Positions 3,318-36,411 of a DNA stretch of 64,000 nucleotides are shown piece after piece. The DNA lies in the NCBI RefSeq assembly GCF_900115165.1, contig NZ_FOVP01000003.1:124001-188000 (forward strand), read 5' to 3'. The position numbers and the translations under genes are program-made. The stretch is from Roseovarius lutimaris. GTDB lineage: Bacteria; Pseudomonadota; Alphaproteobacteria; Rhodobacterales; Rhodobacteraceae. Position 1 is the first letter of the stretch. Each line of letters starts with the position of its first letter. The notes under the pieces were generated by a model that worked only from the letters and a program-made list of their open reading frames with translations, made no database searches and was not told where the DNA came from.

Positions 3318-3322
3318 AGCCG

Positions 3323-4135: not shown

Positions 4136-4138
4136 GGC

Positions 4139-11662: not shown

Positions 11663-11731
11663 CTCTGTACGCAACGTCGAAGATGTGAAGATCGACCCCG
11701 CATCCGACGAGGTAACGAAAGGTCATTCAAG

Positions 11732-13066: not shown

Positions 13067-13099
13067 ACGTACCGCCGTAATGATGCATCCGGGGCCTTT

Positions 13100-14428: not shown

Positions 14429-14539
14429 TCTGGCCATCGGCCAAACCGGCTTGGCTTTGATTTGCAACAGGCTGGCCTTGCCAGCCAATCGTTGTTAGGA
14501 CGAGCGGCATCAGGCAGATCGGAAAGGCTCTTCCCTGAC

Positions 14540-15463
14540 ATGGATATAGATTTCAAGGCAATCTTGGCGCGTTATGCCTCACGCTGGCGGTCGACACGCC
14601 ATATCGAGGCGCACCTGCGCTTTCCCGGCATGGATTTCCACGAGGCGCTGATCCGGGTGACCTACAAGCGCATTTTCGGGGCATGGCCCGATCTTGAAAA
14701 CCCGCGCACCATCAGTGAGAAAATGTGCTGGCTCAAGATTAACGACCGGCGGCCGATAAATGCCGTCGTCACCGACAAGTACAGGCTGCGCGGCTATGCA
14801 GAGCAGCATGGGCTTGGCCATCTCATGAACGGGTTGCACGCAGTCTGGGACAGCGCCGCTGATGTAGATTTTCGCGCGCTGCCCGATGCCTATGCTCTCA
14901 AGGTCACTAACGGCAGCGCCTGGAACGTGATCAAGGCCCCCGGTCAGGTGATCGACGAGGCGGCCGTGCGCAAGCGGCTTGATCTCTGGATGAACACGAA
15001 CATGGCCGATAACAAGGGCGAGTGGTACTATGCCGCCTCACCAGCGCGGATCATCGCAGAGCATTATCTGGACAATGGCGGCGGCGATATCCCGGATTAC
15101 AAGCTGTTCGTGTTCAACGGCGACGTGCGCATCATCCAATATTGCGAGGGCCGCTATATCAATTTCCGCAGCATTTTTATGGATGCTGACTGGCAACCGA
15201 TGCCTTGTACCTATGCCAATTTTACCCCTTATGGGCCCCCCCCTCCAAGGCCTGCGGAACTCGACGAGATGATCGAGCTTGCACAAACCCTGTCGCAGGG
15301 GTTTTCGCTGGTGCGGGTGGATTTCTACATCCATGAGGGTCGGCTTTTGTTGGGTGAATTGACGCTCAATCCGGTTGGCGGTTACACCCATTTCACCCCC
15401 GATGAGTGGAACCATAAGATCGGTGATTGGCTGGAGCTGCCGGACAAGGCGACACTCGTTTAG
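14540..15463 (+). CDS. TupA-like ATP-grasp protein
   Basis: A 307-residue protein of the TupA-like ATP-grasp family found in capsule and teichuronopeptide clusters. Typical segments are NPRTISEKMCWLKI near residues 53-66, KVTNGSAWN near 118-126, PDYKLFVFNG near 186-195 and the catalytic end LGELTLNPVGG near 273-283. ATP-grasp enzymes form amide or peptide bonds, so it may attach an amino acid to the glycan. ATG 14540 is chosen over upstream starts because similarity begins there. It overlaps by four bases with the oppositely transcribed gene that follows. Confidence 0.75.
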   Translation: MDIDFKAILARYASRWRSTRHIEAHLRFPGMDFHEALIRVTYKRIFGAWPDLENPRTISEKMCWLKINDRRPINAVVTDKYRLRGYAEQHGLGHLMNGLHAVWDSAADVDFRALPDAYALKVTNGSAWNVIKAPGQVIDEAAVRKRLDLWMNTNMADNKGEWYYAASPARIIAEHYLDNGGGDIPDYKLFVFNGDVRIIQYCEGRYINFRSIFMDADWQPMPCTYANFTPYGPPPPRPAELDEMIELAQTLSQGFSLVRVDFYIHEGRLLLGELTLNPVGGYTHFTPDEWNHKIGDWLELPDKATLV

Positions 15464-16395
15464 CGGAACGCCCCGGCGCGATAGAGCCGCCAGGCAAGTT
15501 TTGGTGCGTGCAGGACCGGGTGGCGGCGCTCAGATTCGCTGACCTCCAGCTTCACGCCGGAATGGCTGGCCACCTTTTCAAGAATGTAATCCAGCCCCGC
15601 ATCGAATGTCGTCGCGGCCTTGAGTACGCGCAGCGCGCCAAGCGGTTTGCCGATCACCCGGCGCAGCGCCCATTTCCCCGCGCAGGCCATGCGGCGCAGC
15701 CCCCCGGCATCCGGCAGGTCCGGTGCGCCGTCCTTGTCCTGCGGCAACAGGATCGCCGACAGGCGAGCATAGCGCTCGGGGAAGCGCGCAACGATCTCTA
15801 TCGCGCGCGGGGCGGGGTTTTCGGGGCGCAACTCGGTGCGATAGCTTTCGCATAAGCCGCGCACCCAGACGTCACCGGGCTGTTGCTGGCCGCACAAAAG
15901 CGGGGTGACCTGCGCCGCAAAATGCCGGCAGGCATGCGCCAGCGTGTCAATCAGCCGAGCGCGCAGGCCCGGATCATCGGTGACAACGGTGGCGGGCTGG
16001 GTGAACCGCGCCCAGAGCATCGATTCCAGCGACCCGCCACTGGCCCGGCGCAGAAACGCGGCCTCGGACACCACCGCGTATTTGCTGCGCAGGCGGTTGC
16101 CGTTGGCATCGGTGATCTCCAGGAAATGCACGCTTGGAGGCAACAGCCAGGCCGCAAGACTGGCAAGCCCTCGGCCATGAACCGCGCGGTAGCTGTCCAC
16201 GATCACGTAGAAATCCAGCATCTTCTCCGCCGCTTCCCCCTCGCGCAGGGCTGATCCGTAAAAGATCAGCGCGCGCACCGCCGCGCCGTGGCGGGCACGG
16301 ATGGCCTCGGCCATGGTCTGTGCAGGAGTCGAAAGCGGGGCCTGATCGGCCTCGATCACCTGGCGCAATTGCGCCATCACCTGCGTCGCGTTCAT
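15460..16395 (-). CDS. nucleotidyltransferase-fold protein, degenerate active site
   Basis: A 311-residue soluble protein. Near the N terminus IFYGSALR (GS at 47-48) followed by DFYVIVD (61-67) looks like the core of a MNT/KNT nucleotidyltransferase fold, but the usual D-x-D/E pair reads D61-F-Y63, so catalysis is uncertain. The remaining 240 residues are helical and unrecognised. It is the last gene of a four-gene leftward operon (LptF-like, LptG-like, lipid kinase, this gene) and overlaps the kinase by four bases. A role in processing the sphingolipid head group is inferred only from context. Confidence 0.6.
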   Translation of the reverse strand: MNATQVMAQLRQVIEADQAPLSTPAQTMAEAIRARHGAAVRALIFYGSALREGEAAEKMLDFYVIVDSYRAVHGRGLASLAAWLLPPSVHFLEITDANGNRLRSKYAVVSEAAFLRRASGGSLESMLWARFTQPATVVTDDPGLRARLIDTLAHACRHFAAQVTPLLCGQQQPGDVWVRGLCESYRTELRPENPAPRAIEIVARFPERYARLSAILLPQDKDGAPDLPDAGGLRRMACAGKWALRRVIGKPLGALRVLKAATTFDAGLDYILEKVASHSGVKLEVSESERRHPVLHAPKLAWRLYRAGAFR

Positions 16396-17357
16396 CGCAG
16401 GAACACCAGCGGTTCGGTCGTGGTAATATGCAGCTTGCCGTCCTCGGCACAGGCCACCGGTTCGCCGTCGATCACAATCGGGTCGTCGTGGACAAGGTCA
16501 AACCGGTCACTGCGATAGCTGGTCATGCCGTGGGCGGCAAGACGCGGGCCGGACAGGTGCAGCAATATCTTTGTAATCGCCCGGCGAAACCCTTTGATCG
16601 GCCAGGCGGCATGGGTGAGGGCGATTGGCCCCGAACCTGTGCCCCAAAACGGGTTCAGCCCAAGGCTCAGCCGGGGCAGGGAGCTTACCAACCCAAGGGC
16701 ATGCGGCCCGTCAAGTTCTACGCCCGCGCCGCGCACTGTAAGATGCGAGGCCCGCAGTACCGGGGCGCCATCAGTGTCGCGATACCTGCCCGGTGCCATC
16801 ACGAAGCGCACAATCGCCAGGATGACAGTGCGCAAACCGCGCTGCTCATCGTCGTGAAACTCGCGCTGCGCAAAAAGCATCGCACGCGCCAGCGATCCGG
16901 TGGACAGGACAAACCCGATCGCAGGGCTGGGCAGGGCGGCGCTTTCGATGCGTAGCGCCCGGTGGGTTTCGCGTGTCGGTTCGTCTACTTCGTTGGCAAG
17001 GGCGGCAATGCGGCGGGTGATCTCGCCTGCGGTCCTGCCGCGAAAGCCAAAGCTGCGCGCCGCCAGATTGGTGCTGCCGCCGGGCAGGATCGCGAATTCG
17101 GGCGGCGAGGCAAAACCGGCCTCGGGGGCAAGACAGGCCGAGAGCACCGCCAAAAGCGTGCCATCGCCGCCCTCGATAAATATCTTTTCCACGCCGTCGC
17201 GCGCCATTTGATGCACAAACCCGTTGAGGTTCGCAAAATCATCCAGCCGCAAAAAGCTGGCATGCGGCAGCTCAAGCGCGACGGCCTCAAGCATGGCGCC
17301 GCGCTTTTCAACGGCATGGCTGCCGTGGTTGACGATTAGGCCGATGCGATGTGTCAT
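16392..17357 (-). CDS. lipid kinase of the diacylglycerol/ceramide kinase fold
   Basis: A 321-residue cytoplasmic or membrane-associated kinase. The nucleotide-binding GGDGT motif is at residues 63-67 and the second conserved loop PGGSTNLA at 92-99, both diagnostic of the DAGK catalytic domain shared by YegS, diacylglycerol, sphingosine and ceramide kinases. Caulobacter CpgB, a ceramide kinase, has this fold; here the surrounding sphingolipid genes make ceramide the likely substrate. The ATG at 17357 overlaps the stop of the LptG-like gene (ATGA), which decides the start over ATG 17387. Confidence 0.75.
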   Translation of the reverse strand: MTHRIGLIVNHGSHAVEKRGAMLEAVALELPHASFLRLDDFANLNGFVHQMARDGVEKIFIEGGDGTLLAVLSACLAPEAGFASPPEFAILPGGSTNLAARSFGFRGRTAGEITRRIAALANEVDEPTRETHRALRIESAALPSPAIGFVLSTGSLARAMLFAQREFHDDEQRGLRTVILAIVRFVMAPGRYRDTDGAPVLRASHLTVRGAGVELDGPHALGLVSSLPRLSLGLNPFWGTGSGPIALTHAAWPIKGFRRAITKILLHLSGPRLAAHGMTSYRSDRFDLVHDDPIVIDGEPVACAEDGKLHITTTEPLVFLR

Positions 17358-18409
17358 GCCGATGCCGTTCGATGATAAGAAAGCCACAGACCTATCAGCA
17401 TCAGCGTGCCGACCGGCACCACCACTGCGATGATCGCACTCAGGCTACCATTCTCTGACAGGGTCTTGAACACCCCATCCGTCACCATGAAGACAAATCC
17501 CGCCGCAATGCCGATGGCGAGCGAAAACTCGCCACCGTCGCGCCGCCCGAGGTGCTGCATGATCGGCACGGTCATCATCAAGAACCCGATGGCAATGAAC
17601 GGCAGCGACAGCCGATTGAGGAACCACACGAAATAGGCATCCGACGGCAGGCTGCCCGAGCCGGTCATCTGAGACAGGCGGTAAAGGTCGGCGAGCGCCA
17701 GATTGCGAGGCTCTGACATCAACAGCCGCAGGGTGTGCGGCGTCTGTTCGCTCTGCCAAATTGCGGGCGGCGCGACCGTGTTGCCGTCATAGCGGATCTG
17801 GCGCACATCGCTCAATGCCCAGCCCCCGGATACCGCCATGGCGGAGCCGGCCCTTGAGATCGCGCTGACCTTGCCGTTTTCGCCGCGCTCGAACAGTGTC
17901 ACATCGCTCAGGCTGCGATCGGTGTTGAGCCCGCCGATCTCGATCAGCAGGCGCCCATCGGCCAGCCAGAGCGATTTCGGGGCTTGACCGTTATCATGGA
18001 CCGCCTCGGGCCCGAGCCAATCCTCAAGTGCGCGGGTGGTCATGGGGGTGATCTGGTCAACCAGAAGCGCCGAGGCGATCGTGGCGATCAGGACCGCCGG
18101 AATCAAGGCGCGCACCTGACCGAAAACAGAGATGCCCGCGCCGACGATCGCCACAAGCTCGTTGCGCCGGATCAGGCTCATATAGGTCAGCAAAAGCGCC
18201 ATCAGAAGCGCAAAGATCATGATCCGGTCAAACAGGATCGGCATCCGCAGCGCCATATAGCGAAACTGATCCGACAGGCCTGCATTCTCGGGCAGCAGAT
18301 CGGCATTGCTCAGCGCATCAAGCACGCCAAGCAGCGCCACCAGCCCAAAGACTGTGAGCACAAACCGTTGCAGAAACATCACGGCAAGATAGCGGTTAAG
18401 GTGGCTCAT
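17354..18409 (-). CDS. LptG-like permease, second copy
   Basis: A 351-residue protein of the LptF/LptG (YjgP/YjgQ) family: three N-terminal helices, a periplasmic beta-jellyroll (about residues 130-255) and three C-terminal helices. In LPS export, LptF and LptG form the inner-membrane channel above the LptB ATPase. A clearly canonical pair lies at 45-47 kb next to lptD, so this is a paralog. It lies eight bases after the LptF-like gene and is co-translated with a ceramide-kinase-like gene, suggesting that it handles a sphingolipid instead of LPS. That role is inference. Confidence 0.8.
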   Translation of the reverse strand: MSHLNRYLAVMFLQRFVLTVFGLVALLGVLDALSNADLLPENAGLSDQFRYMALRMPILFDRIMIFALLMALLLTYMSLIRRNELVAIVGAGISVFGQVRALIPAVLIATIASALLVDQITPMTTRALEDWLGPEAVHDNGQAPKSLWLADGRLLIEIGGLNTDRSLSDVTLFERGENGKVSAISRAGSAMAVSGGWALSDVRQIRYDGNTVAPPAIWQSEQTPHTLRLLMSEPRNLALADLYRLSQMTGSGSLPSDAYFVWFLNRLSLPFIAIGFLMMTVPIMQHLGRRDGGEFSLAIGIAAGFVFMVTDGVFKTLSENGSLSAIIAVVVPVGTLMLIGLWLSYHRTASA

Positions 18410-18417
18410 TCAGAGGT

Positions 18418-19590
18418 CTATGTCGTTGTTTCAGGGCGTGTCGGTTGGTTTCCGGTTTTGGGTTTCACCCGCCATAAAGCGGGAAAGGCGGATCGTCCAC
18501 TGGCGGTGCGCCTGAAGGTGTAAATTGCCAGCCCGGCCACCAGTGCCACAACCGGCCATGTGCCGGCCCAGGGCGGCACCGCCCCGCGTTGGGCGAGCGA
18601 CAGGCCAAATTCCAGGAGTTTCTGAACCACCAGCAACAGCAAAATCCCGACCGCCAGCCCGCCCGAGCGGGCAACCCGCCCAAGTTGCAGCCCAAGCACG
18701 ATGCTGATCAGCGGCAGCGCGATCAAAAGCGCCGCGCGGCTAAGCCGGTCATGCATGTCTGCCTGGGCGGCGGCGGGGTTGATGGTCTTGTCGCTGGCCA
18801 GATAGGATTTGCTCAGCAGTTCCTTGAGGGTCAGCTCGCGCTGATCATCGCCGCGGTCGCGGTAGCCCTCGATTGGTGTCGGCATCTTCCACGTCACCTT
18901 GGCGGTATAAAGCCGGTTGCCCTGCGATGTGGTGATCTCTGCGGGCAGGTCGCCGATCATCGCATCCTGAAGATTGATGGTCCAGGTGCTGTCCTCGTCT
19001 TCGCTCAGAACGCCGGTATGGCCGGTGATGAACTTGTAATTGCCGTCCTTGCTGGTGTCGATAATAAAGGTTTCGCCCAGTTTTCGACCGGCAAAATTGA
19101 CCTTCGAGGTCCAGACGACCTTATCGTCGAACTGAACGAATTTGCGCTCCTTGAAGGCGGTCACGATCGAGCTTTGCTTCAGCTCATGCACAATCTGGCG
19201 GTAGTTGTAGCGCGACACCGGCTGTAAAAAACCCGAAATCAGGATCGAGACAAGCGCCAGCACCACCGCCAGCCCCAGATAGGGCCGCAGGATACGGCGC
19301 AGCGACACGCCGGTGGACATCAGCGCGACAATCTCGCCCGAGCGGCTTAGCCGTTCGATGGTGATGATGGTTGCGATCAACAGCGCCCCCGGCAGCGCCA
19401 TGCCAAGATAATGCGGCAACAGATTGGCGATCATCCGGGCCGCCGATTGCAACGCGTCATCCGACCCGGCAATCAGATCGGTGATGCGGATCAGCCGTTC
19501 CAGCATCAGGATCGCCAGCGCCACGGCAATCAAGCCGACCAACAGGCCAATGTTGTTGCGCAACAGGTAACGGTCTAACTTGAAAAACAT
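18418..19590 (-). CDS. LptF-like permease, second copy
   Basis: A 390-residue YjgP/YjgQ-family membrane protein with paired N-terminal helices (about residues 10-30 and 50-80), a periplasmic domain of about 170 residues and three C-terminal helices. It heads the leftward operon and its start is divergent from the DUF2141 gene, 146 bases away. It is distinct in sequence from the canonical LptF at 45.1 kb; for example it opens with FFKLDRYLLRNN, not TRFDRYMLSQF. Probably forms a heterodimer with the LptG-like protein and uses the LptB-like ATPase encoded at 26.0 kb. Confidence 0.8.
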   Translation of the reverse strand: MFFKLDRYLLRNNIGLLVGLIAVALAILMLERLIRITDLIAGSDDALQSAARMIANLLPHYLGMALPGALLIATIITIERLSRSGEIVALMSTGVSLRRILRPYLGLAVVLALVSILISGFLQPVSRYNYRQIVHELKQSSIVTAFKERKFVQFDDKVVWTSKVNFAGRKLGETFIIDTSKDGNYKFITGHTGVLSEDEDSTWTINLQDAMIGDLPAEITTSQGNRLYTAKVTWKMPTPIEGYRDRGDDQRELTLKELLSKSYLASDKTINPAAAQADMHDRLSRAALLIALPLISIVLGLQLGRVARSGGLAVGILLLLVVQKLLEFGLSLAQRGAVPPWAGTWPVVALVAGLAIYTFRRTASGRSAFPALWRVKPKTGNQPTRPETTT

Positions 19591-19736
19591 CGCTGGCGTT
19601 CTCTCCGGGCCGTCGGGGGTGTTACATGCCTTGCAATGACTTGTGATCGCCCCATTCCTTGTAGTCTGTTACTAGAAAACCTTTATAACCGCCAGCGGCT
19701 GACTGTAACCAGGTCGTGACACAAAGGAGAGTGCCA

Positions 19737-20234
19737 ATGTTCATCAAACGCACCCTGTACACGCTCGGCATGGCTGGCGCGCTTGCGCTGTCGGTCTCTG
19801 GCTTGCCCACGCAGGCCGCAACGCTGGATATCCGCCCGCATGAGGCGGCGGCGGTTTGCGGTGCGCGCGCGCCTCAGGTCAAGGTGATTGTCGAGAACGT
19901 CACGTCGCAAGGCATTCTCACGGTCGAGCTTTACCGCCCCAGCAAGCGCGATTTCCTGAAAAAGGCGTCGCGGGTGCATCGTATCCGGGTGCCCGCCAAA
20001 AGTGGCTCTCAGACGGTGTGTTTCGACATCAAGGCCGCTGGCGCCTATGCGGTGGCCGCCTATCAGGATCTGGATGCCGACAGGGATCTGGATCAGAAAT
20101 GGAACATGATGCCCGCAGAACCCTTTGCGCTGTCGAGCAATAAGAAGCTGGCGTTTGCGATGCCGGTGTTCGATGATGCGGCCTTTCAGGTGCCCAGTGA
20201 AGGCGCCGCCATAAGGATTAGACTGCAACGATGA
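19737..20234 (+). CDS. DUF2141 secreted protein
   Basis: A 165-residue precursor with a signal peptide (basic start FIKR, hydrophobic core, AQAA-like cleavage region near residue 28) and a mature domain of the DUF2141 family, seen in VEVELYRP-like and AYQDLDADRDLDQKWNM segments. The domain is a predicted beta-sandwich acting in the periplasm. ATG 19737 is preceded by AAAGGAGA; the earlier GTG at 19716 is not. It is the first gene of a rightward run and overlaps bcerS by four bases. The tight coupling hints at a periplasmic role for the lipid, but function is unknown. Confidence 0.8.
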   Translation: MFIKRTLYTLGMAGALALSVSGLPTQAATLDIRPHEAAAVCGARAPQVKVIVENVTSQGILTVELYRPSKRDFLKKASRVHRIRVPAKSGSQTVCFDIKAAGAYAVAAYQDLDADRDLDQKWNMMPAEPFALSSNKKLAFAMPVFDDAAFQVPSEGAAIRIRLQR

Positions 20235-21406
20235 CCCAAAGTACGCCCCCCTTGTCCGCAACCTCTGATATAACGGTGAGCGAGGCCACCTCGCGTGCGG
20301 ATAGGGCGGCCTTTGTCGACCTGCCATACCGCGCCTATCGCGATGTTGCCCATTGGCGCGCGCCGCTGCGGTTCGAACGCAAGGCACAGCTAGAGGCAAA
20401 GCATAATCCGGGCCTCGCGAAGATTGATCATGCGCTTATGCTGGCGCGCCGCGACGGTCAGGTTGTCGGGCGCATCGCCGCGATTCTCAACAAGGGCCAC
20501 CTAGAGCTTTATGAGGACGCCACCGGGCATTTCGGTTTTTTCGACACGCTCACCCCCGACGCCGATATCGCCGGGGCGCTGATGGCGGCTGCCGAAGACT
20601 GGGTGCGCGCGCGGGGCATGAGCCGCATTGCCGGGCCGTTCAGCTTTTCGATCAACGAGGAATCCGGCCTGCTTGTCGATGGTTTTGACACGCCACCGAT
20701 GATGATGATGCCGCACGGCCGACCTGATTACGCCCCGACGCTTGAGGGGCTGGGCTTTGCCAAGGCGATGGATCTTTATGCTTTCCTGCATGAGTTTGAC
20801 GAGACCTATCATATCCCGCCCACCGTCAAGCGCTGGAAAGACGCGTTTGACCGCGATCCGGCACTGAGCATCCGACCGCTCGACATGAAGAATTTCAAAT
20901 CCGATATCCGACTGGTGATGGAAATATTCAACGATGCCTGGTTGCAAAACTGGGGGTTTGTCCCGTTCAGCGCCGATCAGATCACTGTGATGGCGCAGGA
21001 ACTCAAACCGCTGCTGCGTTCCGAGTCTCTCTGGATTGCCATGATAAATGGCGAACCGGCGGGGTTCACCTTTCTGTTCCCCGATCTCAACGAAATCGTC
21101 GATGGGCTTGACGGGAAAATCCTGCCGTTTGGCTGGGCGCAACTGCTCTATCGGCTCAAACTGCGCGGGCCGACACGGGCGCGCCTGCCGCTGGCGGGAT
21201 TACGGCGCAAGTTTCACAAGACCCGCCGTGGCATGGTCGCCATGGCAGGATGCTTCGAGGCCGCCTTTGCCGCGCAACATGCGCAGGGCGTGCGCCAGGT
21301 CGAGGCGTCGTGGATTCTTGAGACCAACAAGGATCTGCTCAATCTTGTCGATCTCTACGAGATGAAGCGTTACAAAACCTACCGCGTTTACGAGAAGACG
21401 CTATGA
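20231..21406 (+). CDS. bcerS: bacterial ceramide synthase-like GNAT N-acyltransferase
   Basis: A 391-residue protein with two GNAT-like halves. The N-terminal half has VGRIAAILNK (about 79-88) and a highly conserved block near 135-160 containing GPFSFSINEE, LLVDGFDTPP and MMMMPH. This block marks the family that includes Caulobacter bCerS, which acylates the sphingoid base to give (keto)ceramide. In bacteria the acylation probably precedes keto reduction. It overlaps the upstream DUF2141 gene and the downstream nucleotidyltransferase gene by four bases each. The call rests on this motif plus Spt, ACP and CerR genes in the same block. Confidence 0.78.
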   Translation: MTQSTPPLSATSDITVSEATSRADRAAFVDLPYRAYRDVAHWRAPLRFERKAQLEAKHNPGLAKIDHALMLARRDGQVVGRIAAILNKGHLELYEDATGHFGFFDTLTPDADIAGALMAAAEDWVRARGMSRIAGPFSFSINEESGLLVDGFDTPPMMMMPHGRPDYAPTLEGLGFAKAMDLYAFLHEFDETYHIPPTVKRWKDAFDRDPALSIRPLDMKNFKSDIRLVMEIFNDAWLQNWGFVPFSADQITVMAQELKPLLRSESLWIAMINGEPAGFTFLFPDLNEIVDGLDGKILPFGWAQLLYRLKLRGPTRARLPLAGLRRKFHKTRRGMVAMAGCFEAAFAAQHAQGVRQVEASWILETNKDLLNLVDLYEMKRYKTYRVYEKTL

Positions 21407-22191
21407 CCGGCAATCCATCCCAACCCGTTCAGGTGCTTGTTCTGGCAGGCGCGCGCGCCGCCGGCGATCCGCTCTGCGAGGCCGAAGGCGTGGCCAGCAA
21501 GGCGGTGATCGACATCGTCGGTCAGCCGATGCTGTCGCGGGTGTTGCGCGCCCTTGGCGCCAGCCGCGCCAATGCCCCTCCTTGGGTTCTCGGGCTTGAG
21601 GGTGACGCGCTTGCGACCGCCGCCGATGGCATCGCGTGCCAGCCGCTGGCGTCCCAAGGGCGTGGCCCGGCCTCCAGTCTTATCCGCGCTCTGGAGGGGC
21701 CGGTTTCGACACCGCTTCTGGTGACAACCTGCGATCATGCCCTGCTGACGCCCGAGATGGTCGACAGCTTTCTGGCGAAATCCATGGCCAGCGATGCCGA
21801 CCTCTGCGTCGGCTTTGCCGAGCGCGCCGTGATCGAGGCCGACTATCCGGAAACCAGACGCACCTATCTGCGCCTTGGCGGGGCCGAGCTGTCGGGTTGT
21901 AACCTGTTTTATCTGGCCAGCCCCGAGGCCCTCAAGGTGATCCGCTTTTGGCAAAGCGCCGAACAGGACCGCAAGAAACCCTGGCGCATCGCCTGGCGCT
22001 TCGGCCCGCTCACGGCGCTGCGCATTGTTTTGTCGCGCAGAGGTCCGGATGCGGTCTTTGCCTTGCTGTCGCGCCAGCTTGGCGCGCGGGTCAGCCCCGT
22101 CACGCTTGAATTCGCCGAGGCCGCGATTGACGTCGATAAACCCGGCGATCTTGTGCTTGTGCGCGAGATTCTCGCCGCGCGCGAAGCCTGA
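21403..22191 (+). CDS. MobA-like NTP transferase
   Basis: A 262-residue protein of the MobA/GT-A nucleotidyltransferase type. VLVLAGARAAGD opens the fold, SKAVIDIVGQPMLSRVL follows near 35-51, and TTCDHALLTPEMV near 108-120 supplies the metal-binding aspartate. The usual GxG-x-R loop is altered (AGARAAG). Such enzymes activate a sugar or alcohol phosphate with CTP or GTP. It is co-translated with bcerS. A second, different nucleotidyltransferase is encoded at 24554, so two activated head-group precursors are possible. The substrate cannot be read from the sequence. Confidence 0.7.
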   Translation: MTGNPSQPVQVLVLAGARAAGDPLCEAEGVASKAVIDIVGQPMLSRVLRALGASRANAPPWVLGLEGDALATAADGIACQPLASQGRGPASSLIRALEGPVSTPLLVTTCDHALLTPEMVDSFLAKSMASDADLCVGFAERAVIEADYPETRRTYLRLGGAELSGCNLFYLASPEALKVIRFWQSAEQDRKKPWRIAWRFGPLTALRIVLSRRGPDAVFALLSRQLGARVSPVTLEFAEAAIDVDKPGDLVLVREILAAREA

Positions 22192-22196
22192 GGGTG

Positions 22197-22646: not shown

Positions 22647-22727
22647 GGTTATTCCCCTTGTCGTCCGTGACTGGTTCAGGGCGACACCAGGGCCAGCCCG
22701 CAAAACGATGATAAATGGAATTACCCG

Positions 22728-23861: not shown

Positions 23862-23867
23862 TCCGGC

Positions 23868-24557: not shown

Positions 24558-25282
24558 AAGCCATCATCCTAAGCGCCGGTCGCGGTTCGCGCCTTTTGCC
24601 GCTGACGGAAACCCGCCCCAAATGCCTTTTGGAAATCGGCGATACCACTATCCTTGGCCGTCAACTCGATACGCTTGAGGCCGGCGGGGTGAGCGAGGTC
24701 GTGGTGGTCACCGGTTTCATGGCCGCTCTGGTCGAAGAAGAGGTTGCCAAACGCAGTGGCCCGATGAAGGTCACCACCTTCTATAATCCATTCTACCAGA
24801 TCGCCGACAACCTCGCGAGTTGCTGGATGGTGCGCGACTTTATGGATAGTGACTTTCTGCTGATCAACGGCGACACCCTGTTCGAGGAAGGGTTGCTGAA
24901 CGCTGTGATCTCCAGCCCGCATGTTCTGCCGGTTCAGGTGACGATTGATCGCAAGGGCTCTTACGATTCAGACGATATGAAAGTGCAGCTTGACGGCACC
25001 CGGCTGGCCGCGATCGGCAAGTCGCTCTCTGCGGAAAAGACCGATGCTGAATCCATGGGGCTTTTGCGCTTTACCGGCGAGGGACCGGCCATTTACCGCG
25101 CCAAACTTGAACAGATGATGCGCACGCCCGAAGGGGTGTCGAACTGGTTCCTCAAGGCGATTGACGCGATTGCCAATACCACCGGTCAGGTCGGCACGTT
25201 TTCAATCGAAGGCCGCCGCTGGAACGAGGTGGACACCGTCGAGGATTACAACGGCATCGACGCGCATTTCCGCCAAAGTTAA
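24554..25282 (+). CDS. sugar/alcohol-phosphate cytidylyltransferase-like enzyme
   Basis: A 242-residue nucleotidyltransferase. The N-terminal signature ILSAGRGSRLLPLTETRPK followed by CLLEIG spans residues 5-29; LLINGDTLF near 98-106 gives the metal-binding Asp, and RRWNEVDTVEDY near 223-234 closes the active site. This resembles phosphocholine and inositol-1-phosphate cytidylyltransferases. Co-translated with the HAD phosphatase and just after the CDP-alcohol transferase, so it probably makes the CDP-activated head group that the transferase uses. Which alcohol (inositol, glycerol, choline or other) is not decided by the sequence. Confidence 0.82.
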   Translation: MKAIILSAGRGSRLLPLTETRPKCLLEIGDTTILGRQLDTLEAGGVSEVVVVTGFMAALVEEEVAKRSGPMKVTTFYNPFYQIADNLASCWMVRDFMDSDFLLINGDTLFEEGLLNAVISSPHVLPVQVTIDRKGSYDSDDMKVQLDGTRLAAIGKSLSAEKTDAESMGLLRFTGEGPAIYRAKLEQMMRTPEGVSNWFLKAIDAIANTTGQVGTFSIEGRRWNEVDTVEDYNGIDAHFRQS

Positions 25283-25395
25283 CCGCGCCGATATGCAATG
25301 CGAGGGTCTGCAACTCTCGGTGAGGTGCAAGAGGTTGTGGTTTCCAAGGCTGAGGCGATGCTGATATACCTCTCCAAAAGTTGGGGGAATTGAGA

Positions 25396-26046
25396 ATGGC
25401 ATCTACATCGGCTCGGGCGCGCGGCGCGGCATGTCTTTTGGGCGCGGCCCTTGTTGGCCTGGTGTTTTCCGCCCCCCCGATGCAGGCACAAGACCAGGCG
25501 GTCGCAATCGAGCCGGCAACCGGGCAACCCGCCGCCGGGTTGGCCGCGCCGCGCGGGACCAACCTGTCGTTTGGCGGGTTCAAGGTGTCGGCGGATATGC
25601 CAATTCAGGTGGTCTCGGACGAATTGCAGATGGATCAGAACGTCAACACCGCGATGTTTGCCGGTAACGTCGATGTCGAGCAGGGCGATCTGAAACTCAA
25701 CTCTGCCACTGTTTTTGTCGAATACGGCATGATCGAGGGCTCGTCCAAGCCCAATCAGATCATCCGTCTGACCGCCAGTGGCGGCGTGACGATCACAAGC
25801 CCGACCGAGACAGCCGAAGCCGCCGATGCGGTCTATACGATCGCCACGCGCGAAATCGTGATGACCGGCGATGTGCTTGTCACGCAGGGGCTGAATACCG
25901 TCGCTGGCGAGCGGATGGTGGTGTATCTTGATGATGGAACGGCCGAGATGCAGGGCAGGGTGCGCACCTTTATCGACAAAAGCAGATCCAAAGACCCGGA
26001 GCCGGTTCAGTCCGACAGCGACCCGGCGGGGGAGGCCGGTCAATGA
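25396..26046 (+). CDS. LptA-like periplasmic protein, OstA domain
   Basis: A 216-residue precursor with signal peptide (cleavage probably after MQAQ near residue 31) and an OstA/LptA beta-jellyroll: IQVVSDELQMDQ, TAMFAGNVDVEQGDLKLNS and TNTVAGERMVVYLDD-type repeats are typical of the LPS bridge protein. ATG 25396 follows a GGGGGAA stretch; the gene overlaps the LptB-like gene by four bases. In relatives lptA normally sits with lptC, lptB and rpoN; here lptC and rpoN are missing and the neighbours are sphingolipid genes. It may be a dedicated bridge for a sphingolipid or, less likely, the sole LptA of the cell. Confidence 0.78.
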   Translation: MASTSARARGAACLLGAALVGLVFSAPPMQAQDQAVAIEPATGQPAAGLAAPRGTNLSFGGFKVSADMPIQVVSDELQMDQNVNTAMFAGNVDVEQGDLKLNSATVFVEYGMIEGSSKPNQIIRLTASGGVTITSPTETAEAADAVYTIATREIVMTGDVLVTQGLNTVAGERMVVYLDDGTAEMQGRVRTFIDKSRSKDPEPVQSDSDPAGEAGQ

Positions 26047-26801
26047 CGGCAGACGACCTCGGCGCTACACCGGGATCGGACGGGCTGCGGATTATCAACC
26101 TGCGCAAGAGTTACAAGCGCCGGATGGTGATCCGCGATGTCAGTCTTGAATTGCACCGCGGCGAGGTCGTGGCGCTTCTCGGCCCGAACGGTTGTGGCAA
26201 GACAACCTGCTTTTACATGATCGCCGGGCTGCTTGCGCCCGACGGCGGGCAGGTGACCATCGACGGAACCGATATTATCGGGCTGCCGATGGATAAACGG
26301 GCAAAGCTTGGGCTTGTCTATCTGCCTCAGGATGTGTCGATCTTTCGCGGGCTGAGTGTCGAGGACAATATCCTGACCATCCTCGAAATCATTCAGCCCG
26401 ATGCAAGATTGCGGCGCGAAAAGCTTGAAGAGTTACTGTCAGATTTGTCTATTGACCATCTGCGCCATGCGCCCGCGCTGTCCTTGTCGGGCGGCGAGCG
26501 GCGCCGGGTCGAGATTGCGCGCTGTCTGGCCGCCAATCCAAAATACCTGTTGCTCGATGAACCCTTTGCCGGGGTCGACCCGATTGCCGTCGGCGAAATT
26601 CGCACCATCGTGGCCGACCTGAAAAACCGTGGCATCGGCGTGCTGATCACCGACCACAATGTGCGCGAAACCCTGGAAATCGTCGATCGCGCCTATATCC
26701 TGCACGATGGCGGCGTTTTGATGAGCGGAACCCCGGATGAAGTGGTGCGCGACGAGAACGTGCGCCGTGTCTATCTTGGCGAGGATTTTCAGATGGCCTG
26801 A
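26043..26801 (+). CDS. LptB-like ABC transporter ATPase
   Basis: A 252-residue ABC ATPase of the LptB type. Walker A GPNGCGKT at 47-54, Q-loop Q96, signature LSGGER at 148-153, Walker B LLLDEP at 169-174 and switch H205 are all intact. VYLPQDVSIFRGLSVEDN near 92-109 and the short C-terminal end are typical of LptB. It is co-translated with the LptA-like gene and would energise the LptF/LptG-like pair encoded at 17.4-19.6 kb. LptB could also be shared with the canonical LptFG; a second lptB elsewhere would argue for specialisation. Confidence 0.85.
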   Translation: MTADDLGATPGSDGLRIINLRKSYKRRMVIRDVSLELHRGEVVALLGPNGCGKTTCFYMIAGLLAPDGGQVTIDGTDIIGLPMDKRAKLGLVYLPQDVSIFRGLSVEDNILTILEIIQPDARLRREKLEELLSDLSIDHLRHAPALSLSGGERRRVEIARCLAANPKYLLLDEPFAGVDPIAVGEIRTIVADLKNRGIGVLITDHNVRETLEIVDRAYILHDGGVLMSGTPDEVVRDENVRRVYLGEDFQMA

Positions 26802-26958
26802 CGGCCTCTGCCGGGTTAACCCCGCCTGCCGCAGCGCAGCACGTTGAAGTTTTCACGCCAAGCTGTATTGTCGGTCCGGCCTAAAGGATTTACCAGACCC
26901 CAAAGAAGCCTGCCGCATGATCCTGCGGCGCTATGGTTCAGTTCAAAGGAAGCCCCCG

Positions 26959-27771
26959 ATGACAAGCGTCAACGACCCCCAGCCCGCCAAGCCCAAGACG
27001 CTCAACCGGCCGGTCCGTAGATTCGTGAAGCGCCGTGGTAAAAAGCTGATGCGGTGGGCGGCCAAGTTTCAGAGCAAGCAAAGTATCGTTCCCGATACGC
27101 CGTTTATCGACAACAGCCATTTCCCGTTTCTGACCGAGTTTGAGGACAAGTGGGAAACGATGCGCGATGAGGTTCAGGAAATCCTGAAAAATCGCGAGGA
27201 TATTCCGGGCTTTGAAGAGGTCTCGCCCGATCAATACCGGCTTGCCAAGGCCCGTCAGTGGAAAACCTTTGTGCTTTATGGCTTTGGTCAGCAATTGCCC
27301 AAGAATTGCAGCAAGGCCCCGGTCACAACCGAGGTTCTCAGCCGCGTGCCGCATGTGCAGACCGCCTGGTTTTCGATTCTGGCGCCGGGCTATCACATCC
27401 CGGCCCATACCGGCGTGACTAAGGGAATTGTGCGCGCCCATCTTGGCCTGATCATCCCCAAGGACCGCGAAAAATGCCGGATTCGGGTGCAGGATCAGAT
27501 CATGGCATGGGAGACCGGCAAGGTCTTTGCCTTTGATGACACCTATGAGCACGAGGTCTGGAACGACACCGACGAAGAGCGGGTGATCTTGCTGTTTGAT
27601 TTCGACCGGCCGATGCGGTGGCGGGGACGGATGCTCAATAACCTCATGCTTTGGTTGATGAAATTCACGGCGTTTTATCAGGAGCCCAAGAAAAACCTCG
27701 CCGATTTCGAGGACCGCTTCGAGGCCGCCGCACGCCGGGCAGATGCCAATCTGGAAAAGCTGAGCGACTGA
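26959..27771 (+). CDS. aspartyl/asparaginyl beta-hydroxylase family oxygenase (LpxO-like)
   Basis: A 270-residue protein with a basic N terminus and the AspH jellyroll: SILAPGYHIPAHTGVTKG near 138-155, RAHLGLIIP near 157-165, and FDDTYEHEVWN near 195-205 supply the two iron-binding histidines and the 2-oxoglutarate Arg region. LpxO, which hydroxylates a lipid A acyl chain at C2, belongs to this family. Between the Lpt-like genes and the ceramide core it could hydroxylate the ceramide fatty acid. ATG 26959 follows AAGGAAG. Family call is firm, lipid role is inference. Confidence 0.82.
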   Translation: MTSVNDPQPAKPKTLNRPVRRFVKRRGKKLMRWAAKFQSKQSIVPDTPFIDNSHFPFLTEFEDKWETMRDEVQEILKNREDIPGFEEVSPDQYRLAKARQWKTFVLYGFGQQLPKNCSKAPVTTEVLSRVPHVQTAWFSILAPGYHIPAHTGVTKGIVRAHLGLIIPKDREKCRIRVQDQIMAWETGKVFAFDDTYEHEVWNDTDEERVILLFDFDRPMRWRGRMLNNLMLWLMKFTAFYQEPKKNLADFEDRFEAAARRADANLEKLSD

Positions 27772-28262: not shown

Positions 28263-30017
28263 ATGTTGACCCCCAGCGTAACTGAAAGCGGTGTGCCGCG
28301 TCGTAGCGGAAATTTTTCATCGCTTACCGATGCCCTTGATTATGCGGCGACCGGCAATACCGGGCTGAATTTCTATGCGGCGGATGCCTCGCTCATTGCG
28401 GCGGTGTCCTACTCGGAGTTGCGCGATCAGGCGATGACGCTTGCAGGTCGGCTTGCGGCGGTTTTCCCGCGCTTGTCGCGGATCGGCCTTATCGCCGAGA
28501 CCTCACAGGATTTCATGGTTGCCTTCATGGCCTGCCAATATGCCGGGCTTGTGCCTGCTCCGCTGTCGCTTCCGGCGGCGTTCGGTGGGCGTGATGCCTA
28601 TCAGGGACAGGTCGCGCGCACCGCGGAAACCGCCGATCTGGCGGTTGTCATGGCGCCCGAGGATCTGGTGGAACTGCTGACAGGTGCGCTTGCGCCGCTT
28701 GATATCCCGGTCATCGCGCTCTCAGGTGCCGATCTTGCCGGGGGCAGTGTCACGCCGGTTCCGCATGGCGCCGGTGATCCGGCCTATATCCAGTTTTCTT
28801 CGGGCAGCACCAGCGCGCCCAAGGGCATCTATGCCACTCAGGCCAGCGTTTCGGCAAACTGTCACGCGATCATCAACGAAGCGTTGATGATGGATGAAAC
28901 CGATCGCTGCGTGTCCTGGCTGCCGCTTTATCATGACATGGGCCTTGTCGGCTTTTTCATGGTGCCGCTCTATTCCCAGACCACTGTCGATTACATTTCG
29001 CCGACATCTTTCGCACGGCGCCCGACAACCTGGCTGAAGCTGATCAGCGAAAACCGTGGCACCATCGTCTATAGCCCGAGCTTTGGCTATGACCTTTGTG
29101 CGCGTCGTTACCGCGGTGAGCCGCTTGATCTTAGCTCGCTGCGGGTTGCCGGCATTGGCGGCGACATGGTGCGCGATGACGCGATGATGGCCTTCAGCAA
29201 TGCGTTTGAGGCCAGCGGATTCAAGCAAACCGCGCTGGTGCCCAGCTATGGGCTTGCCGAAACCACCCTTGGCGTGGCGTTTGCGCCGCTTGGCGTCGGC
29301 CTGCGTCGTGACAAGGTCGATACCGGGCGCATGCAGACATCCGGCCGGGCCGTGCCCGCGTCGGACCTGTCAAAGCCTGGCCAGGTTCGCACCTTTGTCG
29401 CCTGCGGCAAGCCGATGGCCTCGCTTGATCTGCGCATTGTCGATGAGACCGGCAAGAACCTTGAAGACCGCAAGATCGGTCAGATCATCCTGCGCGGCCC
29501 GAGTGTCGCGGCCGGGTATTTCCGCGCCGAAGAAGATGCGCTTACGCCGCTGACGGACGCGGATGGCTGGTTGGAAACCGGCGACCTCGGCTATTGGCTT
29601 GATGGCGAAGTGGTGATCACCGGGCGCTCCAAGGATCTGATCCTGTGGAACGGGCGCAACATCTGGCCGCAGGACATCGAATGGGTCGCCCAACAGACCG
29701 GCGGCAAGAACATTTCGGGCGCAGGCGCGTTTGAAATCAACGAAACCGATGGCGGCACCCGCATCGTTCTTCTGGCGGAATGCTGGTCGCGCGACGAGGC
29801 CGTGCGCGAGCAGCTCTTGCACGACATCTTGGCGGCCACCCGCAAAACCACCGGCGCGCCGGTCTCGGTTGAGCTGGTTGGTGTGCGCTCGTTGCCGATG
29901 ACCAGCTCGGGCAAGCTTAGCCGGGCAGGCGCACGCGCGCGTTATCTTGCCGGCGGCTATAATACTGCCCCGGTAGAAGATTCGCTTGCTGCTACCGCTC
30001 CGGTTCGCGGTGCCTGA
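28263..30017 (+). CDS. fatty acyl-AMP ligase / acyl-ACP synthetase
   Basis: A 584-residue adenylate-forming enzyme of the FAAL class. The P-loop YIQFSSGSTSAPKG spans residues 175-188, WLPLYHDMGLVG follows near 219-230, YGLAETTLG near 325, and the C-terminal GDLGYW, GRSKDLI and NIWPQDIE segments near 440-478 complete the fold. FAALs activate fatty acids as acyl-AMP and load them on an acyl carrier protein. It heads the operon with cerR, acp and spt; an acyl-ACP synthetase gene is also part of the Caulobacter ceramide locus. Start ATG 28263 follows GAGGTG. Confidence 0.88.
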   Translation: MLTPSVTESGVPRRSGNFSSLTDALDYAATGNTGLNFYAADASLIAAVSYSELRDQAMTLAGRLAAVFPRLSRIGLIAETSQDFMVAFMACQYAGLVPAPLSLPAAFGGRDAYQGQVARTAETADLAVVMAPEDLVELLTGALAPLDIPVIALSGADLAGGSVTPVPHGAGDPAYIQFSSGSTSAPKGIYATQASVSANCHAIINEALMMDETDRCVSWLPLYHDMGLVGFFMVPLYSQTTVDYISPTSFARRPTTWLKLISENRGTIVYSPSFGYDLCARRYRGEPLDLSSLRVAGIGGDMVRDDAMMAFSNAFEASGFKQTALVPSYGLAETTLGVAFAPLGVGLRRDKVDTGRMQTSGRAVPASDLSKPGQVRTFVACGKPMASLDLRIVDETGKNLEDRKIGQIILRGPSVAAGYFRAEEDALTPLTDADGWLETGDLGYWLDGEVVITGRSKDLILWNGRNIWPQDIEWVAQQTGGKNISGAGAFEINETDGGTRIVLLAECWSRDEAVREQLLHDILAATRKTTGAPVSVELVGVRSLPMTSSGKLSRAGARARYLAGGYNTAPVEDSLAATAPVRGA

Positions 30018-31011
30018 TCAAACCGGCACGGCGGGCCAGGTATCACAGATCAAAATTGCGCTGACGGGGGCCACCGGTTTTGTCGGGCGCACCCTTCTGG
30101 CAAAGCTTGACGCCGCGCAGGTGGCTGTCACGGCGCTTGCGCGCGCGCAACCCGGTCGCGAATTGACCGATGGCGCCAACCTGCGCTGGATCACCGGCGA
30201 GATGGATCAGCCCGACAGGCTGGCGGATTTTCTGGCCGGGGCCGATGTAGTGATCCATTGTGCCGGGGCCACCAAGGCGCTTGACGCCCGCGCGTTTCAC
30301 GCGGTCAACGCCACCGCCACCGAGACCCTTGTGCGCGCCGCGGCGCAGGCCGGTGTCGGTCATTTCATCCTGATGTCGTCACTGGCGGCCTCGCGCCCCA
30401 GGGTTTCGGATTACGCCGCCTCCAAGGCCGCCGGCGAAGAGCTTGCGCTTGCCGAGGCTGGCGATATGACCCTGACCACGGTGCGTGCGCCCGCAGTGAT
30501 CGGCCCCGGCGATCAGGCCACGGCGCCGCTTTTCTCGCTCATCGCCCGTGGCTGGATGCCGGTTTTAGGCGGAAAAGCGCGCAGCGCGCGATTTTCCGTG
30601 ATCGACGTTCAGGACCTCGCCACCCTGCTGATTGATCTCGCAAGGCCCGGTGCCACGCCCGTCAAGGGCAGGACGTTCGCCCCCTATGGTCATCACAGCC
30701 TTGGCTGGTCGGATATGGCCGCCAGCGGCGCACGGGTAACTGGCCGAAAGGTGCGCGAAATTCCCCTGCCGATGCCACTTGCAACACTGGTCGGCCATGG
30801 CGCCGATCTGGCCGCGCGGGTGACCGGGACGGCACAGGTTTTTTCCTCGGGCAAGGTTCGTGAAATGCGCGCCGGTGACTGGATCGGGGATACCCCCCTT
30901 GAAACAATTACGCCGCTTGATGTTACAATGCGCCGTTGCCTTAATCCGTTTCTGAGGCTAGGGAATGCGACAAACCAAGTCGTAGCAGACAACGACCGGA
31001 GTCCAGAATGA
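30010..31011 (+). CDS. cerR: CerR-like NAD(P)-dependent reductase
   Basis: A 333-residue extended short-chain dehydrogenase. Nucleotide loop GATGFVG lies at residues 20-26, with the catalytic set Ser124, Tyr135 and Lys139 (YAASK). In Caulobacter, CerR of this family reduces the 3-keto group of the ceramide precursor. No in-frame ATG fits; GTG 30010, which overlaps the end of the ligase gene by eight bases, is the best start. It overlaps acp by four bases. The general epimerase/dehydratase fold is certain; the ceramide role follows from the operon. Confidence 0.8.
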   Translation: MPDQTGTAGQVSQIKIALTGATGFVGRTLLAKLDAAQVAVTALARAQPGRELTDGANLRWITGEMDQPDRLADFLAGADVVIHCAGATKALDARAFHAVNATATETLVRAAAQAGVGHFILMSSLAASRPRVSDYAASKAAGEELALAEAGDMTLTTVRAPAVIGPGDQATAPLFSLIARGWMPVLGGKARSARFSVIDVQDLATLLIDLARPGATPVKGRTFAPYGHHSLGWSDMAASGARVTGRKVREIPLPMPLATLVGHGADLAARVTGTAQVFSSGKVREMRAGDWIGDTPLETITPLDVTMRRCLNPFLRLGNATNQVVADNDRSPE

Positions 31012-31256
31012 ACCAGAAGACCGAAACCATGTTCGACCAGATTTGCGGCATCCTGCGCGCCCATACCAAGGTCGATACCAAGATCGAGCCCGAAACCCTG
31101 ATCGGGGCCGATCTTGCAATTGATTCCGTCGAGATGTTCGATCTCGTGATGGAGATCGAAGAGCAATACGATATCAGTTTCCCGCTCGAAGAAGCCTCCG
31201 AGATTGATACCGTCCAATCCCTGGTAACAGCGATCGAGCGCATTACAAATGTTTGA
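31008..31256 (+). CDS. specialised acyl carrier protein
   Basis: An 82-residue acidic acyl carrier protein. The phosphopantetheine site is Ser40 in AIDSVEMF, where the usual housekeeping ACP motif has DSLD, so it is not the fatty-acid-synthase ACP. Helical pattern and length fit. Its gene overlaps cerR by four bases and spt by eight. It most likely holds the acyl chain delivered by the FAAL and presents it to serine palmitoyltransferase, as proposed for the dedicated ACP of the Caulobacter sphingolipid locus. Confidence 0.9.
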   Translation: MNQKTETMFDQICGILRAHTKVDTKIEPETLIGADLAIDSVEMFDLVMEIEEQYDISFPLEEASEIDTVQSLVTAIERITNV

Positions 31257-32451
31257 CACCGAAGCCAACAAAAACACCGTATTCGCCAAGTTCGAGAAGC
31301 TGTCCGAACGGGTCGATAAACTGCGCTCTGCCGGGCGCACGCCGTTTGGCATGCGGTTTGACGAAATGCTGTCGCAGACCCGTGCCCGTGTCGGCAACAC
31401 CGAGGTTCTGCTGGCCGGCACCAACAACTATCTTGGCCTGACCTATAACCCCGACGTGATGGCCGCCGCCAAGACGGCGATTGATACCCATGGCACCGCC
31501 ACCACCGGCAGCCGTCTGGCCAATGGTACCTATAGCGATCACCTTGATCTTGAATCCGACCTCAAGGATTATTTCGGCGTGGCCTCGGCCATTGTCTGCA
31601 CCACCGGCTATCAGGCCAATCTGGCCGCCCTCAGCACTCTTGCCGGGCGAGGCGATCACCTGTTGATCGACGCCGACAGCCATGCCTGCATCTATGATGC
31701 CTGCCGCCTCAGCGATGCCGAAACCATCCGGTTCCGGCACAACAGCCCCGAGGATCTGAACAAACGCCTGTCGCGCCTGCCCGCCGAGGGCGCCCGTCTT
31801 GTGGTGATCGAGGGGCTTTATTCGATGCTGGGTGATGTCGCCCCGGTCGCCGAATTTGTCGAGGTCGCCCATTCGCACGGCGCGATGATCTTTGTCGATG
31901 AGGCGCATTCCATCGGCTGCTACGGCGAAAACGGTCGCGGTGTGTCGCAGGCACAGGGCGTGCTGGACAAGGTCGATTTCATTTCCGGCACGTTTTCCAA
32001 AAGCTTCGCCTCGATCGGCGGCTTTTGCGTGTCGCGCCACGAAGCACTTGAACTGATCCGTCTGGTCAGCCGCCCCTATCTTTTCACCGCTTCGGGCTCG
32101 CCCGCCAATATGGCCGCCGCGCGGGCCTCGCTCAAGATAATCGCGAGCGATACCACCCTTGGCAAATCGCTCTGGGATCGGGTGCATCAGCTCTACAACG
32201 GGCTGAGTGACGCGGGCTTTACCATCTCGTCGCCTCCGGGCCCGATCATGGCCATTTCGCGCCCCGACGAACATGTCGCCGTGGCCGAATGGAATCACCT
32301 GATGGACCAGGGGGTCTATGTCAATCTGGCGGTGCCCCCGGCCACGCCGCAGGCCAAGTCCCTGCTGCGCCTCAGCGTTTCGGCGGCCCATACCGAGGCG
32401 GAAATCGATCAGCTTATCGCGGCGTTCCGCAGCCTGCCCAAGACCGCCTGA
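31249..32451 (+). CDS. spt: serine palmitoyltransferase
   Basis: A 400-residue PLP-dependent alpha-oxoamine synthase that condenses L-serine with an acyl thioester to give 3-keto-sphinganine, the first sphingolipid step. H145, D217, H220 and K251 (GTFSK) correspond with one constant offset to H159, D231, H234 and K265 of the Sphingomonas enzyme. It ends the operon and overlaps acp by eight bases. KBL or ALAS alternatives are unlikely given the acp, FAAL and bCerS-like genes. It ends 219 bases before phnG. Confidence 0.9.
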   Translation: MFDTEANKNTVFAKFEKLSERVDKLRSAGRTPFGMRFDEMLSQTRARVGNTEVLLAGTNNYLGLTYNPDVMAAAKTAIDTHGTATTGSRLANGTYSDHLDLESDLKDYFGVASAIVCTTGYQANLAALSTLAGRGDHLLIDADSHACIYDACRLSDAETIRFRHNSPEDLNKRLSRLPAEGARLVVIEGLYSMLGDVAPVAEFVEVAHSHGAMIFVDEAHSIGCYGENGRGVSQAQGVLDKVDFISGTFSKSFASIGGFCVSRHEALELIRLVSRPYLFTASGSPANMAAARASLKIIASDTTLGKSLWDRVHQLYNGLSDAGFTISSPPGPIMAISRPDEHVAVAEWNHLMDQGVYVNLAVPPATPQAKSLLRLSVSAAHTEAEIDQLIAAFRSLPKTA

Positions 32452-36407: not shown

Positions 36408-36411
36408 CGCC

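Follow-up and report, generated by a model that had tools for sequence, protein, structure and literature searches.

A Caulobacter-type ceramide-phosphoglycerate gene block with a second set of Lpt genes is predicted in Roseovarius lutimaris

Which lipid is made by the gene block at 15460-32451 of the Roseovarius lutimaris stretch analysed here, and how would that lipid reach the outer membrane? The stretch (the window, 64,000 nucleotides; G000:C38:124001-188000) comes from a 4.28 Mb genome in 72 contigs. The block holds five ceramide-synthesis families, a CpgB-type kinase, CpgA-, CpgC- and CpgD-type head-group genes, and second copies of LptF, LptG, LptA and LptB. Its reading frames are open, and the intergenic gaps, with the HIT gene counted, do not exceed 125 bases apart from 491 bases before AasR. 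Roseovarius, Maritimibacter, Hyphomonas and Henriciella share the main gene order, which takes the block beyond chance. In Caulobacter crescentus, CC_1168-CC_1152 is the cluster for ceramide-phosphoglycerate (CPG) and CPG2 (PMC11324152, PMC10331486, PMC12275187). Judged from sequence and gene order, the block is the counterpart of this cluster, with several swaps named below and with its product and export predicted. We consider it probable that the block encodes a CPG pathway of the Caulobacter kind, in which the second LptF/G/A/B set would likely carry the finished sphingolipid from the inner to the outer membrane.

The first-pass annotation of this DNA had proposed a nearly complete ceramide gene block, and each gene it named was found where it had been placed. 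New to that list are LptF2/LptG2, LptA2/LptB2 and the HIT gene, along with two genes beyond the coordinates it gave, the TagF-like gene and the Wzx-like flippase. All five ceramide-synthesis genes of a Caulobacter-type cluster (aasR, cerR, acpR, spt and cerS) are present. The serine palmitoyltransferase Spt passes its curated cut-off. Most of its sequence can be aligned to solved Spt chains (E 1e-121), and the stretches around the PLP lysine, whose residues we presume to have their usual roles, are kept. The dedicated acyl carrier protein is indeed a PP-binding protein, the fatty acyl-AMP ligase lies above its NCBIfam cut-off, and the putative ceramide kinase has a DAGK_cat domain and a GGDG motif. 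The CerR-like reductase belongs to the epimerase/SDR family and is named from gene order and similarity in relatives, in which the order AasR-CerR-AcpR-Spt recurs. The bCerS-like acyltransferase is 55% identical over 97% to P0075 of Hyphomonas neptunium, a published bCerS ortholog case (PMC11324152), and its predicted structure (pLDDT 91.7) is a tandem GNAT fold; a single-sequence search gave no solved relative. The annotation had suggested checking whether this protein falls outside the bCerS clade. As far as the check could be run, it groups with Hyphomonas bCerS in the tree.

The comparison with Caulobacter rests on published gene order and numbering and on order-mate genomes, no C. crescentus protein being aligned by name, and the labels CC_1157 and CC_1167 are assigned by position. 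A CpgD match was found in 36 of the 249 order-mate genomes, and stretches of nine were read. Three of the nine (G711, G735 and G838) follow the published gene order between the CC_1167 position and CC_1152, and their bCerS proteins are 39-41% identical to that of the window. They depart from it in two ways: in G735, NTP3 and CpgD lie about 5 kb apart, and in both G711 and G735 a DUF2141-like match stands between the metallophosphatase and the HIT gene. The window and the C. crescentus cluster have in common the five ceramide genes, CpgA-CpgD, a CC_1153-type nucleotidyltransferase, LptF2 and LptG2; the genes at positions CC_1157 and CC_1167 have relatives in the window too. The two differ in four respects. 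The window has LptA2 and LptB2 and no LptC2; a HAD phosphatase replaces the CC_1158 metallophosphatase; the hydroxylase is of the OlsC/LpxO kind and lies in the block, whereas the reported Caulobacter enzyme is the DesA-type CC_0202 outside the cluster; and the flippase is not the best match of the Caulobacter-type flippase. An ortholog cluster has been named in H. neptunium (PMC11324152). The other Hyphomonas genomes read here are the nearest relatives outside the Rhodobacteraceae by sequence and gene order, and their loci share the HAD gene with the window. They differ from it in that neither LptA2 nor the hydroxylase has a match near the cluster and the Spt operon is at the opposite end; each of two Hyphomonas genomes searched gave one LptB match. 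Profile scores, alignment to solved structures, two trees and conserved gene order support a Caulobacter-type ceramide system in a Rhodobacterales genome, as had been proposed.

Table 1. Predicted genes of the block and its left flank, in window coordinates
Gene product	Coordinates	Strand	Basis
TagF-like transferase (GlyPT), doubtful outer block member	9285..10457	+	PF04464 25.4 bits, cut-off 22.1
Wzx-like flippase, predicted inner-membrane lipid flipping	13100..14428	+	PF01943 30.4 bits, cut-off 28.2
CpgC-like, predicted CTP:ceramide-1-phosphate cytidylyltransferase	15460..16395	-	Tam41 fold
CpgB-type ceramide kinase	16392..17387	-	PF00781 (DAGK_cat) 43.2 bits; GGDG in translation
LptG2, second-copy export permease	17354..18409	-	PF03739 164.8 bits; 197.2 bits, below LPS LptG cut-off 240
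LptF2, second-copy export permease	18418..19590	-	PF03739 198.8 bits; 195.7 bits, below LPS LptF cut-off 230
DUF2141 protein, conserved beside bCerS	19716..20234	+	PF09912 78 bits
bCerS-type acyltransferase (predicted ceramide synthase)	20231..21406	+	P0075 identity; tandem GNAT fold; tree
MobA-like nucleotidyltransferase (CC_1153 position)	21403..22191	+	PF12804 48.6 bits; position shared with order-mates
HIT-family protein (CC_1157 position)	22197..22646	-	HVHFHVLP in translation; 42-45% in order-mates
CpgA-type CDP-alcohol phosphatidyltransferase	22728..23861	+	PF01066 42.7 bits; 43-44% in order-mate genomes
HAD-IB phosphatase, at place of CC_1158-type metallophosphatase	23868..24557	+	TIGR01490 125.8 bits, cut-off 98.3
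CpgD-type CTP:phosphoglycerate cytidylyltransferase	24554..25282	+	PF00483; contact residues kept
LptA2, second-copy periplasmic bridge protein	25381..26046	+	PF03968 73.9 bits; 41% identity (141 residues) with LptA1 of this genome
LptB2, second-copy export ATPase	26043..26801	+	TIGR04406 356.3 bits, cut-off 240; tree
OlsC/LpxO-related hydroxylase, predicted on ceramide acyl chain	26917..27771	+	PF05118 177.8 bits
AasR-type fatty acyl-AMP ligase	28263..30017	+	NF006624 652.3 bits, cut-off 600
CerR-type reductase	29986..31011	+	PF01370 81.8 bits; NAD-dependent epimerase/SDR family
AcpR, dedicated acyl carrier protein	31008..31256	+	PF00550 32.7 bits, PP-binding
Spt, serine palmitoyltransferase	31249..32451	+	NF047599 565.5 bits, cut-off 500; PDB 2x8u E 1e-121

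The chemistry of AasR, AcpR, Spt, bCerS and CerR has been shown for Caulobacter in the cited papers and would be the same here. AasR would load a fatty acid on AcpR and Spt would join fatty acid and serine; bCerS would supply the second acyl chain, and CerR would then reduce the product. The ceramide would be phosphorylated by CpgB and, judging by the Tam41 fold, converted to CDP-ceramide by CpgC. CpgD would provide CDP-glycerate, and CpgA, perhaps together with the TagF-like protein, would transfer the phosphoglycerate units. Surplus phosphate would be removed by the HAD protein, and the OlsC/LpxO-related enzyme would hydroxylate an acyl chain. The lipid would be turned over by the flippase, extracted by LptB2-F2-G2 and passed along LptA2 to the single LptD of the genome.

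The export step depends on the second Lpt genes, which are homologous to the LptF, LptG, LptB and LptA components of the lipopolysaccharide (LPS) transport complex LptB2FG-C-A-DE. Unlike that complex, the block has no LptC or LptD of its own and its predicted cargo is a sphingolipid. Three of its four copies (LptF2, LptG2 and LptA2, the last with 62.9 bits against 71.7) fall under the LPS equivalog cut-offs, whereas the housekeeping LptF, LptG, LptA and LptB pass them. Besides the block pair, the genome has one further LptF/LptG pair, at 45135-47329 of the window, adjoining the only LptD match; about 13 kb separate the block from these housekeeping genes and lptD (45120-49533) on its right. 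It also has two LptA, two LptB (about 73-75% identical), one LptC and one LpxC. The description of the block as self-contained was thus too strong, as the single LptC and LptD matches lie outside it and would be shared by any LPS-type export. The LptF2 and LptG2 copies of six Hyphomonas-type clusters show 51-58% identity to those of the block. LptB2 groups with Rhodobacteraceae LptB (98/98 support, tree of 14 rows), apart from Hyphomonas LptB, and LptA2-LptB2 occur in 4 of the 109 non-duplicate bCerS loci (115 rows minus six duplicates), all four from Rhodobacteraceae. Of the eight genomes in which LptB was searched for, two matches (E 1e-60 or better) were obtained in R. marisflavi and Roseovarius sp. 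A-2 alone. C. crescentus carries LptC2 instead of LptA2/LptB2 (PMC11324152), and the G711 cluster, from its sequence, seems to do likewise; it therefore appears that a common LptF2G2 core was supplemented with different spare Lpt parts in separate lineages. LptA2 was also considered as the Caulobacter LptC2 and rejected, since a single comparison with the G711 protein gave E 0.004 over 45 residues, against the 41% identity to LptA1.

Could the second LptF/G/A/B set instead serve LPS or another lipid, with the sphingolipid exported otherwise? LPS is probably made in this strain, LptC and LptD are single, LptB2 is close to its housekeeping copy, and Parvularculaceae loci have Spt and bCerS without an LptF2 match in the stretch read. 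We nevertheless regard this as unlikely. An LptF2 match is found in 48 of the 52 CpgB-bearing loci, LptF2, LptG2 and LptA2 miss the LPS cut-offs, and Caulobacter mutants in CC_1156 (lptF2) and CC_1168 (lptC2) resemble CC_1159 mutants in their fitness patterns (0.60 and 0.78; PMC11324152).

The head-group genes bear on the identity of the lipid. CpgC has the fold of Tam41, a mitochondrial/bacterial CDP-diacylglycerol synthase (PDB 7ecd, 6ig2, 6ig4), at 13% identity, the predicted acceptor here being ceramide-1-phosphate; this fold points to CDP-ceramide as the route. No solved relative of CpgC was found by single-sequence search, and its relative in locus L151 reaches 21.3 bits for PF09139, under the cut-off of 24. 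In CpgD, R13, K23, N86, N105, G106, D107, M142 and K156 are conserved in 28 of 28 rows. The residues were matched by numbering, with the N86-N105 spacing one residue shorter than N90-N110; the reported Thr93 is S89 here, and the counterpart of Ser170 is not placed for sure. The C. crescentus CpgD chain was absent among the PDB matches of the window CpgD. A different head group made by the same kinds of enzyme, another phospho-alcohol such as inositol or choline, was our first idea for the NTP-transferase/CDP-alcohol pair. It was set back by matches that proved weak and is retained as a rival, a shade less likely than export by another route. The best NCBIfam matches of CpgA are archaetidylinositol- and phosphatidylinositol-phosphate synthases, at scores far below the cut-offs (47.6 vs 180 bits). 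The best solved relative of CpgD by sequence is a CTP:phosphocholine enzyme (1jyk), yet the glycerate contacts N90, N110, M147 and K161 correspond to the fully conserved N86, N105, M142 and K156, a pattern that other substrates could explain too.

A HAD match is present in 29 and a metallophosphatase in 28 of the 109 bCerS loci, and none has both; the 52 CpgB-bearing loci comprise 26 with HAD, 19 with the metallophosphatase and 7 with neither. CC_1158 is published as non-essential for CPG2 and reported absent from H. neptunium, where CPG2 is still expected. The HAD gene in the Hyphomonas loci offers a reason for this expectation. The hydroxylase shares the Asp_Arg_Hydrox Pfam domain with OlsC, its best named family, and LpxO. 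Relatives of it, at 52-97% identity, are found no more than 7 kb from bCerS in 15 of the 109 loci, in several families, which favours ceramide over ornithine lipid as the substrate. In the HIT protein we take HVHFHVLP to be the family motif; a plus-strand open reading frame at 22194-22670 was rejected as a shadow of this opposite-strand gene.

To the left, the block may extend to the flippase and the TagF-like gene. The latter, GlyPT, has invariant HGAGD, APH and SSQ.YEF stretches in its alignment, which we presume to resemble TagF motifs. It is 38-40% identical to the gene beside the flippase in G711, G735 and G838, and in Hyphomonas polymorpha a relative (34% over 350 residues) directly follows CpgD. 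In G711 the gene on the other side of the GlyPT relative scores 34.2 bits for LptC, for which the cut-off is 38. By position, GlyPT is a relative of the gene at CC_1167. That gene has been called probably unrelated to the cluster, yet its mutants show cofitness with spt (0.57) and CC_1159 (0.54) mutants (PMC11324152). Judged from titles and abstract starts, a literature search gave no recognisable study of CC_1167 function. The flippase stays beside the block in three Roseovarius relatives. The stretch at 10454-15463 also contains two genes with no Pfam match (10454 and 11732) and a TupA-like ATP-grasp gene, which stay next to the block in Roseovarius relatives; the TupA-like gene is relocated in Roseovarius sp. 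A-2, and 44-45% relatives of 11732 lie close to the G482 and G583 sphingolipid clusters. Farther left, at 1953-6627, are COX1-family, CbbQ/NorQ-type AAA, VWA and COX3-family genes, presumably a nitric oxide reductase cluster.

A number of observations weigh against the proposed pathway or its parts. For the head group, the window CpgC has no Pfam match, PF09139 included, and Caulobacter without CC_1159 (CpgA) still forms CPG, leaving the CDP-ceramide-using enzyme unassigned (PMC11324152). CC_1157 mutants show no high cofitness. The exclusion of HAD and metallophosphatase may be a single event, with few events behind the counts, because the HAD loci present in the bCerS tree all lie inside one 27-row clade. 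The hydroxylase scores 227.9 bits for OlsC and 129.9 for LpxO, below the NCBIfam cut-offs of 450 and 500. For GlyPT, PF04464 is matched by 2 of 9 members, which makes the TagF-like call weak, and a PDB profile search gave TagF-like Cps3D as the best match at a weak E 0.55. No GlyPT match was found beside the flippase in G828, one of four order-mate genomes checked there, in two of six Hyphomonas-type loci (L041 and L042), or in the Henriciella, Robiginitomaculum and Maritimibacter loci; CPG2 is moreover predicted in three species without CC_1167 (PMC11324152). For export, the block has no LptC copy, the single genome match lying elsewhere. The locus of MAG-88 (L038) retains LptA2-LptB2, but its 16 kb gave no match to CpgA or CpgD, and L047 and L149, from the same genus, have bCerS, CpgB, CpgC and LptF2/G2 with no CpgA, CpgD, HAD or LptA2 match. 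Export by the second Lpt set is printed as a suggestion, not a result, and one paper states that no transporter is known (PMC11087976).

How did such a block come to be in the Rhodobacteraceae? It is rare there, as the first-pass annotation had supposed: bCerS matches of at least 37% identity occur in 5 of the 295 genomes of the family, and a further 21 matches reach no more than 31%. Within the genus (n=84), six genomes have the window-type bCerS (55-100%), 14 a second type (35-40%), four weak partial matches only, and none both types. Spt exceeds its NF047599 cut-off in 17 of 60 genus genomes and in 5 of 40 others of the class, and bCerS matches were found in 42 of 289 genomes of a class sample (40 at E 1e-41 or better). 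In quick trees of chosen rows with long branches (bCerS 55, Spt 37), the window type stands beside Hyphomonas, nested in the Hyphomonadaceae set. A single origin of the Roseovarius clusters was rejected on these quick trees (AU p 5e-9 for bCerS, 6 + 4 rows; 9e-7 for Spt, 6 + 6 rows), and a clade of the Rhodobacteraceae type-1 rows with L056 was not (p 0.56). From the nesting and the patchiness we infer transfer of the cluster, likely from Hyphomonas to the Rhodobacteraceae. The second-type loci (L151-L156, from six genomes of the genus Roseovarius, 20 kb each) all have metallophosphatase and Elm1-like matches, with no LptF2/G2, CpgA, CpgD or HAD match in those 20 kb; L151, typed by Pfam, also has a lipid A acyltransferase-like gene. 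It is very improbable that the block is silent, decayed or for another amino-lipid, with the strain free of sphingolipid: one survey reports alphaproteobacterial sphingolipids from Sphingomonadales only but remarks that absence is seldom reported as such (PMC7179689), and against decay stand the open frames and R. marisflavi, which keeps a bCerS 90% and an Spt 94% identical to those of the window. A literature search, judged from titles and abstract starts, gave no recognisable sphingolipid study of Rhodobacterales.

Some further observations concern the relatives and the right flank. A DUF2141 match accompanies bCerS in 61 of 115 locus rows, some records counted twice. The bCerS relatives P0124, P0126, P0130 and P0135 in Dongia and Rhodospirillaceae are publicly named 'dATP pyrophosphohydrolase', probably a carried-over misannotation. 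The bCerS of L104, in a record titled Candidatus Kuenenia, groups tightly with proteobacterial rows, and the record title or the binning may be wrong. L178 (G095) was rejected as Caulobacter, its bCerS relatives being named Dongia. Relatives of Spt, bCerS, CpgA, CpgB, CpgC and CpgD occur together in two genomes of 1.6-1.8 Mb (L180 and L181; G624 and G409), indicating that this set of genes persists when genomes are reduced. A phosphonate C-P lyase operon (32671-38800; PhnG-PhnJ by Pfam, ABC proteins and an amidohydrolase) starts 219 bases after Spt. In R. marisflavi (L163) the frame following Spt resembles what we take to be PhnM, and no match to PhnG, PhnH or PhnI appeared there.

A wider proposal, which we put forward tentatively as possible, is that the locus represents a movable second outer-membrane lipid pathway. 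CPG would be assembled via CDP-ceramide and a TagF-like transferase of the CC_1167 family, and its assembly coupled to a chimaeric Lpt exporter made of transferred LptF2G2 and a duplicate of the host LptA-LptB, so that LPS and sphingolipid would travel on separate bridges to one LptD.

How sphingolipids cross the envelope was stated in 2024 as not known, in two papers (PMC11087976, PMC11324152). A nearly whole second Lpt set inside a biosynthesis block, in a genus of which strains are in culture, makes this question directly testable. The attachment of phosphoglycerate to ceramide becomes testable as well, since the Tam41 fold of CpgC indicates CDP-ceramide, and CC_1167, which had been put aside in Caulobacter as probably unrelated, appears as a candidate transferase. 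Should the trees be right, one marine genus would have received sphingolipid clusters at least twice, contrary to the view of sphingolipids as a Sphingomonadales trait (PMC7179689).

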